Positions 47,649-51,146 of a stretch of 64,000 nt of DNA are shown here, one piece after another. A program made the position numbers and the translations under genes. Origin of the DNA: Lepidurus packardi (lineage: Eukaryota; Arthropoda; Branchiopoda; Notostraca; Triopsidae); NCBI GenBank assembly GCA_023053545.1, contig JAKZAN010000002.1:9916790-9980789 (forward strand), read 5' to 3'. Position 1 is the first letter of the stretch. Each line of letters starts with the position of its first letter. Below the pieces are notes generated by a model. It was not told where the DNA came from, searched no databases, and saw only the letters and a list, made by a program, of their open reading frames with translations.

Positions 47649-48232
47649 TTACCATTGGCGGTTCCAGACATTTCTTTGGCCTTGATTAGGGATACCCCAA
47701 TTACGTCCACCCCAGCCCAGGGCGCGTTCTCCTTGAGCAGGCAAAGCAACATCCCGACCCCATCGGTGACCGCGGTGGCCAGATTTCCCGACGTTTCCAC
47801 GACCACCCCAACTGTTAACTGTCAAACGATTATCTTCCAGGGCTTGATCATGCTCTGCAACAAGATCAACAAAGTCGATGCCACGCACTCCGCGTGTACC
47901 ACCCCAAGACCCATGGTTTTCACCCCAGGATCCTCCAATGCTTCCACTTGAATGTCCCCGGTTGCGAATTTCCTCTGCAAACTGGTCAGCTAGAAGGTCC
48001 TGGGTTTCTACAACTAGAAGATCATCAGCGACATCGCGACGTCCCCGACCCCAAACACCACCACGGTGGCTTGCACCAATGTGTGAGCCGCCATGTCCAC
48101 GAATATGATGTTTTGCGGGACTCAGGTCGCCGGCTAGCGCTACTGTGGCAACTACCAGTAAAATCTGGAAAGTCAAAGTACAAATTAATATTGAATATTT
48201 GCAAGTTATTTGCAACATACAAAGAACTTCAT
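47649..48232 (-). CDS. secreted Gly/His/Trp-rich protein
   Basis: Exon 1 carries only 12 coding bases (48232-48221, MKFF). Exon 2 is 48164-47649, joined at phase 0 across a 56-nt intron, giving 175 residues. The splice produces a clean signal peptide (MKFFILLVVATVALAG), which supports it over the unspliced reading. The mature part alternates basic Gly/His/Trp-rich segments (RGHGGSHIGASHRGG, GGSWGENHGSWGG, GWGGRNWG) with acidic helix-like ones (DVADDLLVVETQDLLADQF, DFVDLVAEHDQALED), separated by Arg-containing sites. No cysteines in the mature part. Candidates are an antimicrobial-peptide-like precursor or a cuticle or mucus protein. No family assignment is certain. Confidence 0.75.
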
Positions 48233-48302
48233 GTTTAATTGTTCAAATAAAGCTTTGCAAGCTGCTCTGAGAGAGTGGTGCTATAGATTGTGGCAACTTA
48301 TG

Positions 48303-48310: not shown

Positions 48311-49190
48311 GTACGATGAGTGGCCATCAAAACGCACTACAAAAACAAGTACTTCGACTTGTTTTTCTAAAAAGAAGGGTGAAAAAACTGCTTGTAGATT
48401 GTCAAACATGTCCTACGCGTGGCATTGGGCTTTCCTGGTCTAAATATTATTTCTAGGAAACTGGCTTGTGCATTGAATGTGCGTTTTAGCATCAGCAGAC
48501 CTCGATTTCGCTACCGGTTTAGTTTTTTCCACACAGTAAAGGACTTGAAAAACGAATGAAGGAATTCGTCGACGTCCTTTACGCATTAAAATGAAAGCGA
48601 CTCCATTTTAAACTTCCCTTTCCTCCTAAACTAGAGTGGAGTTATTCAACTTTGTTCAAAGCTAGGGCAGATCTTCTGTTTTAGCTGTTGATAATTGAAA
48701 CTATCTTGACAATATAATTTTATTACGTGACCCAATTGCTGCCACCCAAACTATTTCTTTCAAGAGCCAGGTGTATAAGCCTCGACAACAGAGGGCACCT
48801 TCCTAATCACAGGGCCAACCGTCCTCCAATACTTCCGCGCCGTCGCCATTTCCACTACTACGTTGTTCTTCGGGACTTGGACAATCAGCTAATGTTCCGG
48901 CAATTAGTTCTAATAAAGTTTATAAATTAAAAGATAATTGGGGTATAGTGTATAAGGGGCAATTAATTAACTAACATGAATTATTGGTCATCACCTGCTC
49001 GGTTGGGTACTGAAAAAAGAAAATAAAACGTTTAAACAAAGGAAAAGGCACAGCAAGGAAAAAAACTGAAATAGTATATCCTTACCGGTGAAACATGCGA
49101 AGAGAACGTTGAAAGTCAAGATGCTTTATACCGTTAAGACCTTTGTTTAAGGTCGTTTCAAAGAAAACAACCTTTTTCAACGACTGGACC
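48311..49190. other. spacer between two divergent secreted-protein genes
   Basis: Divergent promoter region for the Gly-rich gene (-) and the cysteine-rich gene (+). No supported coding sequence. It ends at the MITE at 49191-49349. Confidence 0.5.
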
Positions 49191-49215
49191 CAGGGCCGCA
49201 CCCAGGATTTTGGTT

Positions 49216-49259
<44 letters not shown>

Positions 49260-49349
49260 GATATGTGGATATCGCTACGGAGAAAAGAATTTCGGTGGGG
49301 GAGGGTAAAACACGCCTAACAACCCCCCTCCCCCTTGGGTACGGGGCTG
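49191..49349. mobile_element. hAT-type MITE with 39-base G run
   Basis: The ends CAGGGCCGCACCCAGG and CCTTGGGTACGGGGCTG are imperfect inverted complements. They are flanked by ACTGGACC (49183-49190) and ACTGAACC (49350-49357), an 8-bp duplication with one mismatch. The element is 159 bp and carries a G run at 49220-49258. It ends 97 bases before the start codon of the cysteine-rich gene. Confidence 0.75.
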
Positions 49350-49385
49350 ACTGAACCTCTTTTCTCAGAACTGCGAGTGTTCGAG

Positions 49386-49407
49386 TTCAACAAGCTTGCT
49401 TGTTGAA
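49386..49407. promoter_or_regulatory. perfect 10-bp inverted repeat before the OBP-like gene
   Basis: TTCAACAAGC and GCTTGTTGAA are separated by TT. It lies 39 bases upstream of the ATG and immediately before a TATAAA at 49415-49420. It could be a transcription-factor site or a chance palindrome. Confidence 0.35.
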
Positions 49408-49445
49408 GCTTGCTTATAAAGCACTTGATACATCGTACATCAACG

Positions 49446-50660
49446 ATGAAGCACTGTCTCATTATTGCTGCTCTTTTTGCTACGGCCTTGGTAAAGTTAA
49501 ATTAAACTTCTTAAAATATTTCCAGTGATAACGTAGTATATTCTCTTAGGCCCGAGCGTCGGATCAAGATGTAAGACAAGGTAATTTGTGATTTCCTCTT
49601 AATTAGGGTTCATGGCGACGTTATTTTTTAATTTTTTTTTTCTTTAGAAAAGGCCCCGGAAACACCTGCTACTGCTGTAATATTTGGGGCAAAATTTATC
49701 TAGTTTATTGACAATCCGTTTTTGTTTTGTTTTTTAGTTCCCTTGCCTCTCTAGCGACCACAAACTTGCCGGTAAAATTTGTCGTGCAAAAGGTAACTTA
49801 TTTTTCTTCCTCGTTCAGTTAATTGAACATTAATAATGTTCATTTCTTTCTTGACTTTATAGCGAAGGAAGAAGGAAGTCTCCAAATCGAGGTAAAAGCT
49901 TGAAGAATTTGTATATTTTAACTATATTTAGGCTTCGTTTCTTTGTACTTGACAGACTCCTCACACGGCTGGTAGTACCTTCGTAAGTCTATTAATGTAA
50001 CTAAACGGTATTTATATTAACTATAATGATAATTTTGGTTGGACAGTGTTACGTAAAATGCATCCTAGAACAGTTGAAAGCGGTAAGAATGTCTGAATCT
50101 TAATTTATTTCAAAATACTACATTTGTGATTATGCGCTTCGCAAATTCCACAGATCGATTCTTCAAACAAAGTTGACACAGCTTCTTTGATCGCTGTAAT
50201 TTCCGCAGCGGATTTGACGGATACCCAAAAAGCTAATGCTATTAAAATTTTAAAGACTTGCCTTCTTGATACGAAACTATCTGCTATGAACATTAGTAAA
50301 CACTTTTACATTTATATTTGCTATTTCTCTAATAAATCAATTTTATATTGGTGTACTCGTTAAGTGGGAGGCTGTAAGCAACCTGCCGATGGACCACCGT
50401 TGGATGCTCCGCAAGTTGGATCCGACCCTAGGGCTAAAGAGAACGCCGAAATGAACGAGAAAGCACTACCACTGTTGCATCCACTCAAAAACAGCCAGGA
50501 ATGCTCAGCCTATGGAAAAGACTTAGGTTGCTTAGGAAGAGCCCTGTCTATGAACGTAATAATCAGATTACTTACCTTCCATTATTGAATTAGATTTTAA
50601 TGTTCAATGTTCTTCTGAAATTAGAACTGTGGTCCTAAGTGTCTTGCTGTGAACCCTTGA
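49446..50660 (+). CDS. secreted cysteine-rich helical protein, odorant-binding-protein-like
   Basis: Ten short exons: 49446-49490, 49550-49580, 49648-49676, 49738-49792, 49863-49891, 49956-49982, 50047-50082, 50154-50295, 50365-50555, 50625-50660. All nine junctions keep phase, giving 206 residues. It starts with a signal peptide (MKHCLIIAALFATALARA). Ten mature cysteines are spaced C-X11-C-X22-C-X3-C-X42-C-X14-C-X42-C-X8-C-X9-C-X3-C. The C-X22-C-X3-C-X42-C part (with CYVKCILEQL) and the later C-X8-C match the C1-C2-C3-C4 and C5-C6 spacings of insect odorant-binding proteins, with an insertion as in Plus-C forms. A ligand carrier is the inference. Another secreted helical Cys-rich family is possible. 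ATTAAA at 50754-50759 may be the poly(A) signal. Confidence 0.65.
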
Positions 50661-51044
50661 AGGCATCGCATCAGCTTAGGAGAAGAAACATTTCTCAACA
50701 GCATTGTGTGGGTTTTTATGATTTCGTTTTAGTACCCATAATTCTTAGTGGCGATTAAACTACCATACGTATATCCGTTTTGGGTAAATAGTAGTTGAGT
50801 TGCTTTCGATTCTTGTATTACTAATAACTACGCACAACTACTATATCCACAAGTTCCAATAATAGAAAATTTAGTGTTTATTTCGATGTGGAGGGCTCTA
50901 TCTACTGTGATGTTTTGCATGAAATGTTTAGTTTTAAACTGGCTGTTGAACATGAAACGTGTCTTCATATTTTGAATCATTCGCGGCCCTACCACAACAT
51001 TCACTCTGATGCTGGAAAAAATTAAATATTTGTTTTCGGAGTAA

Positions 51045-51146
51045 TCTGCATTGAACTACTTTGGAAGAAATAGTTGAAACTACTAAAATATTAGTTATAC
51101 TAACTAGTAGTTCAACTACTAGTTAACTAGTGCCCATCACTTTTTC
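51045..51146. repeat. fragment with AGTAGTTGAAC/GTTCAACTACT motifs
   Basis: Clustered, mostly inverted copies of AGTTGAACTAC-like words end at gtgcccatcac (complement GTGATGGGCAC). This resembles one end of a hAT-type element as I recall such termini. I could not identify the other end. Confidence 0.4.

Follow-up and report, generated by a model that had tools for sequence, protein, structure and literature searches.

A gene family resembling insect odorant-binding proteins in a probable branchiopod genome

The window, i.e. the whole stretch of 64,000 nucleotides that was analysed, contains at 49446..50660 a gene of ten exons whose spliced product is an open protein of 206 residues; all nine introns have GT-AG borders and are in phase, just as the first-pass annotation of this DNA had proposed for ten exons joined in perfect phase. 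That the gene is real is confirmed by its relatives elsewhere in the genome, described below. The gene, its promoter and the duplicated block enclosing them are laid out as follows, with C1 to C6 denoting the presumed counterparts of the six cysteines of insect odorant-binding proteins (OBPs).

49044..51046, plus strand: duplicated block, about 93% identical to C6:3186434-3188267 (blastn)
49415..49421, plus strand: TATA-box-like TATAAAG, predicted from sequence, 25 bases 5' of the start codon
49446..49490, plus strand: exon 1, with the start codon and a hydrophobic stretch resembling a signal peptide; the C6 copy has an identical exon
49550..49580, plus strand: exon 2
49648..49676, plus strand: exon 3
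49738..49792, plus strand: exon 4, carrying the FPCL motif, C38 (an extra cysteine) and putative OBP cysteine C1 (C50)
49863..49891, plus strand: exon 5, variable C1-C2 loop
49956..49982, plus strand: exon 6, end of the C1-C2 loop
50047..50082, plus strand: exon 7, putative OBP cysteines C2 and C3 (C73-X3-C77), CYVKCILEQLKA; aligns to C2 and C3 of insect OBPs
50154..50295, plus strand: exon 8, helix-like core as far as putative OBP cysteine C4 (C120)
50365..50555, plus strand: exon 9, extra C135, low-complexity insert, putative OBP cysteines C5 and C6 (C178-X8-C187)
50625..50660, plus strand: exon 10, extra C197 and C201 (NCGPKC), stop

A neighbour of this gene, on the minus strand of the window at 47649-48242, is an open frame for a secretory-looking Gly/His-rich protein.

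A second copy of the gene, sharing 92% DNA identity and 88% protein identity with that of the window, is found on another contig (C6:3186669-3187879). It keeps all ten exons and all nine GT-AG introns, and exons 1-9 are free of indels; a single 1-bp deletion in exon 10 alters only the last residues and so gives the protein a different C-terminus. The duplicated block, which blastn aligned in the pieces 49044-49207, 49355-49382 and 49406-51046, comprises the entire gene, the promoter and about 390 bases downstream. The stretch 49208-49354, unaligned in C6, includes a run of 39 G at 49220-49258. Comparison of the two copies yields a dN of 0.055, a dS of 0.109 and an intron divergence of 0.062; the window gene is thus a recent duplicate under weak constraint (dN/dS 0.50). 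With its TATA box lost and its last exon carrying a deletion, the C6 copy may be drifting.

Protein searches of the genome (108.6 Mb), in which the best candidates were scored, bring the family to at least six genes: the window protein gave 12 listed matches, which resolve into the two copies just described and four divergent paralogues. The latter, 45, 40, 37 and 30% identical to the window protein, lie at 12.30 Mb of C4 (two genes in tandem) and at 12.317 Mb and 9.815 Mb of C1, and were spliced by eye with GT-AG borders. C1b (210 residues), C4b (213) and C1a (201) each have ten exons and C4a (363) has eight, two introns being absent; in all four, exon 3 is matched by a micro-exon of either 8 or 11 bases, always 2 mod 3. 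A TATAAA motif occurs at most 130 bases from the ATG in four of the six members, the exceptions being the C6 copy, which has TACAAAG instead, and C4b (TTAAAAAG). When the genome was searched again with C4b, no additional gene appeared among the best candidates; the one new weak match (C2:4993756) belongs to an EGF-repeat gene and was rejected as a family member. So was a weak match at C127:31283, which lies in a kinase-like frame of a contig that looks foreign; this frame (C127:29783-32971) appears to continue past TAA/TAG codons, a ciliate-like trait, and probably derives from a ciliate contaminant.

What do these six proteins have in common? By sequence, all begin with a hydrophobic, signal-peptide-like stretch followed by small residues, and all share the cysteine frame C-X11-C-X(20-35)-C-X3-C-X42-C, then a variable stretch, then C-X8-C-X9-C, in which the X11, X3, X42, X8 and X9 spacings are invariant. 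In the window protein, whose cysteines occupy residues 4, 38, 50, 73, 77, 120, 135, 178, 187, 197 and 201, this frame includes the two spacings on which the first-pass annotation had based its comparison with OBPs, namely C-X22-C-X3-C-X42-C (50-73-77-120) and C-X8-C (178-187). The extra cysteines C38 and C197, which flank the OBP six, are kept in every protein. A cysteine near C135 and the terminal X3-C (C201) are each present in five of the six; C4a has no counterpart of either and retains the other frame cysteines, and C1a and the C6 copy have one further cysteine each. Comparably loose OBP-like spacing arose in 55 of 20,000 random placements of 10 cysteines, and since the copy and the four paralogues keep both the exon plan and the spacings, pattern and gene go beyond chance. 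Plus-C OBPs have more than six cysteines, with some of the extras before C1 and after C6, and the first-pass annotation had likened the window protein to them. The extra cysteines are indeed there; the label itself holds as an analogy only, and the likeness may be of independent origin.

The most variable part of the family lies between C4 and C5. Classical OBPs have 8-14 residues there and the window protein has 57; the family as a whole ranges from about 40 to 196, the latter in C4a, and we assume that the long gap is an insertion. G, P, Q and N abound in this loop in several copies; in C4a, which is encoded on the minus strand, it holds an N/K/G/S-rich repeat insert of about 200 residues. 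Could the loop be the working part of the protein? It is possible, if doubtful, that an OBP-derived secreted protein was recruited to a structural or adhesive job (egg coat, cement, cuticle) and functions through the loop in a ligand-free manner. A loop that varies so widely in length while the cysteine frame stays fixed, and that is built of repeats where it is long (GRPQG in C1b, KNQNGK-like in C4a), would suit such a role; against it, the loop of the window copy is short and not clearly repetitive, and the conserved residues of the family sit in the OBP-like core.

The resemblance to insect OBPs was assessed in several ways. Among 24,736 Pfam families, PF01395 (PBP_GOBP) is the best for all six proteins. 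A profile search with PF01395, which the first-pass annotation had proposed as a check, scores the window protein at 24.1 bits, above the curated cut-off of 22 bits; the C6 copy also passes (23.2 bits), and the four other proteins reach 14.9, 20.1, 18.6 and 20.3 bits. Of the 113 profile positions, the match spans 42-91 in the window protein and 27-100 in C1a, and upon removal of the insert all six proteins still match PF01395, with a best score of 25.5 bits. Ten controls, nine of them versions of the window protein shuffled around fixed cysteines and one its reversed sequence, were without a match to any Pfam family. A search of NCBIfam returned no meaningful match. When PF01395 was run exon by exon against the genome, neither the genome nor the control gave a match; this search is uninformative, because the domain is split across very short exons.

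Comparisons with solved structures point in the same direction, albeit faintly. Single family proteins retrieved no OBP among their matches. The full six-protein profile drew 8 listed matches from the structure library, 7 of them insect OBPs with a best E of 0.24, and a profile of the six core sequences drew 15, of which 11 are insect OBP/PBP chains (best E 0.019), none of them significant alone and near-duplicates included (two aphid chains, three ASP1 chains); a viral phosphoprotein (E 0.031) is among the non-OBP matches of the core profile. Such weak E-values are normal for the OBP family, as a query with a fragment of a true aphid OBP recovers relatives other than itself at E 0.008-0.8. 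C5 and C6 do not align in register in the best structure match, and do so only in low-scoring second segments. A direct profile-profile comparison was made against six insect OBPs, all matching PF01395 at 43-82 bits. It gave E 0.00012 (for one comparison) and a probability of 55.5% over 59 columns around C2-C4, and its score of 32.0 compares with 11.9 +/- 2.6 (maximum 24.7) in 100 column shuffles with cysteines fixed and with 11.0 +/- 2.0 (maximum 17.0) in 100 full column shuffles. The likeness therefore exceeds cysteine spacing, as the observed score beats every cysteine-fixed shuffle. It resides mainly in C2-C4; C5-X8-C6 is supported by the pattern and by the low-scoring second segments just mentioned.

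These scores also bear on convergence, i.e. on whether an unrelated secreted, helical, cysteine-rich family has C-X3-C and C-X8-C in common with OBPs by chance. The similarity is remote, the Pfam match is partial and under the cut-off in four of the six proteins, and random placement of cysteines does occasionally produce OBP-like spacing, at the frequency given above. On the other side, the similarity persists once cysteine spacing is controlled for, and six paralogues all single out the same family, so that convergence seems rather unlikely. The relationship suggested by the first-pass annotation is thus supported, with PF01395 ranking first for all six proteins and the shuffles remaining without a match, as a remote similarity confined mostly to C2-C4. 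We infer, with a probability of roughly 0.78 and judging from sequence, that the gene family of the window is descended from a common ancestor with insect OBPs (PBP/GOBP superfamily) and thus consists of remote but true homologues.

Homology to insect OBPs would be of little note if the DNA came from an insect. A di-domain globin and a fusion of superoxide dismutase with vitellogenin are considered typical of branchiopods at large. A globin family search of the genome gave 13 matches, ten of which form five same-strand pairs with 303-344 bases between the domains; three of these pairs stand in tandem on C3, and one paired-globin gene, when spliced, codes for two globin domains behind a secretory-looking start. 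On C4 and on C1 a superoxide-dismutase domain precedes a vitellogenin of the same strand, by 1.3 kb and 2.6 kb respectively, the reading frames at the C4 locus following the order dismutase, linker, vitellogenin in what is putatively a single gene; a search of the region upstream of another vitellogenin, at C1:3535694, revealed no dismutase-like domain. In Daphnia, the di-domain globin, and in Daphnia magna the dismutase-vitellogenin fusion, are described in passages of PMC7457136 and PMC1783640. Resting on five paired-globin loci and two dismutase-vitellogenin loci, the view of the first-pass annotation that the host is probably a crustacean, perhaps a branchiopod, holds up.

C6 carries, at about 695-705 kb, a nearly complete copy of a mitochondrial genome, inserted into nuclear DNA, with a stop in COX1 and the Pancrustacea gene order, an arrangement found in most branchiopod mitogenomes analysed, according to a portion of PMC8942981, and common to insects. 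Many further COX1-like inserts occur on C1, C2, C4, C5, C21 and C38. An assignment to Triops cancriformis was unsupported, the primers published for that species (PMC5429740) having 4-8 mismatches each at their best sites in the mitochondrial insert, which may differ from the true mitochondrion. On three unplaced contigs (C52, C214 and C43), uninterrupted standard-code COX1 frames look bacterial, and these are probable symbiont or contaminant contigs.

Could the genome nevertheless be that of a hexapod, or the contigs concerned be insect contaminants, so that the genes would be ordinary OBPs? The gene order of the mitochondrial insert fits insects and branchiopods alike, and some contigs of the assembly are foreign. 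However, C1 carries two OBP-like genes together with a paired-globin locus and a dismutase-vitellogenin locus, and C4 two OBP-like genes together with a dismutase-vitellogenin locus, and this sharing of contigs with branchiopod markers argues against contamination. A search of the genome for the insect odorant receptor family found no match; its control was silent too, so it counts only weakly against a hexapod. A hexapod source is therefore unlikely on the sequence evidence, and ordinary OBPs of an insect genome or contaminant are a highly improbable explanation.

Why would OBPs in a branchiopod matter? Available sections of PMC4145409, PMC8222343 and PMC13372173 present OBPs as a hexapod novelty whose progenitor in other arthropods is not known, in agreement with the first-pass annotation, which had stated that they were held to be restricted to hexapods; PMC13372173 (July 2026), as far as its accessible text goes, calls them hexapod-specific. 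Crustacea including Daphnia pulex and Triops cancriformis were searched for OBPs and none were found (PMC4145409, in the part consulted), members of the family have so far not been found in Crustacea (PMC8222343, in excerpt), and 18 copepod transcriptomes contained no OBPs according to passages of PMC9692914, which did not confirm an earlier, contrary automatic annotation of putative OBPs in one copepod transcriptome. Among the openly accessible papers listed, none has a title that reports a crustacean OBP; automatic PF01395 labels for branchiopods may exist in protein databases. The present genes are thus probably the first well-documented relatives of insect-type OBPs from a crustacean. How could such relatives have escaped notice? 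Perhaps the answer lies in their structure, since a domain cut over several very short exons could easily be missed, and the exon-by-exon search with PF01395 indeed gave nothing.

If the family is homologous to insect OBPs, C50, C73, C77, C120, C178 and C187 would correspond to C1-C6 and would pair as C1-C3, C2-C5 and C4-C6, holding together a helical bundle that encloses a hydrophobic pocket. A further disulfide probably joins C135 to C201, proposed because C4a lacks exactly these two cysteines and keeps the rest, which would then leave C38 to pair with C197; these two extra bonds would anchor the CG-KC tail to the FPC stretch at the N-terminus and to the C4-C5 loop, with the C4-C5 stretch of 40-196 residues forming a disordered loop of variable length. 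Most likely, the protein would be soluble and extracellular and would carry small hydrophobic molecules. As the genome search gave no insect-type odorant receptor, a role in smell is just one option, and lipid or pheromone transport in haemolymph, gland or egg is as likely. We are inclined to think that the six-cysteine OBP predates the split of branchiopods and hexapods, that it survives here in a family with ten cysteines and a disordered loop, and that it was lost or became unrecognisable in Daphnia and the other crustaceans searched. If so, the progenitor gap would be filled by a branchiopod family bearing the cysteine signature of insect OBPs, the fold would date to before the hexapod split, and an aquatic, receptor-poor setting would become available for studying the original function of OBPs.

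How does the family compare with known carriers? Chemosensory proteins (CSPs) have a cysteine pattern that differs from that of the window family, and the CSP (OS-D) family of Pfam was matched by none of the six proteins; they are likewise small secreted carriers and are present in crustaceans (PMC4145409, in part). Secreted, helical, six-cysteine carriers are also known outside insects in the OBP-like proteins of ticks, mites, spiders and millipedes, such as VdesOBP1 of Varroa, which according to excerpts of PMC8222343 are likewise PF01395-like and about 10-15% identical to insect OBPs, and the window family might thus be a crustacean member of this group rather than of the insect type. Its C2-X3-C3 and C5-X8-C6 are insect-like, whereas text passages of the same source give the chelicerate and myriapod proteins other cysteine positions and the pairing C1-C6, C2-C3 and C4-C5, and no mite-labelled protein stood among the listed structure matches; membership of that group is therefore improbable. 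With insect OBPs, the preferred relatives, the family shares a secretory-like start, C2-X3-C3, C5-X8-C6, a C3-C4 spacing of 42, the similarity over C2-C4 and the existence of divergent paralogues. It differs from them in its length (about 200 residues vs 120-140), in its four extra cysteines, in the insert of 40-196 residues between the C4 and C5 regions, in its PF01395 scores (15-25 bits vs 43-82 for six insect OBPs) and, whereas insect OBPs have hexapod hosts, in what appears to be a non-hexapod host.
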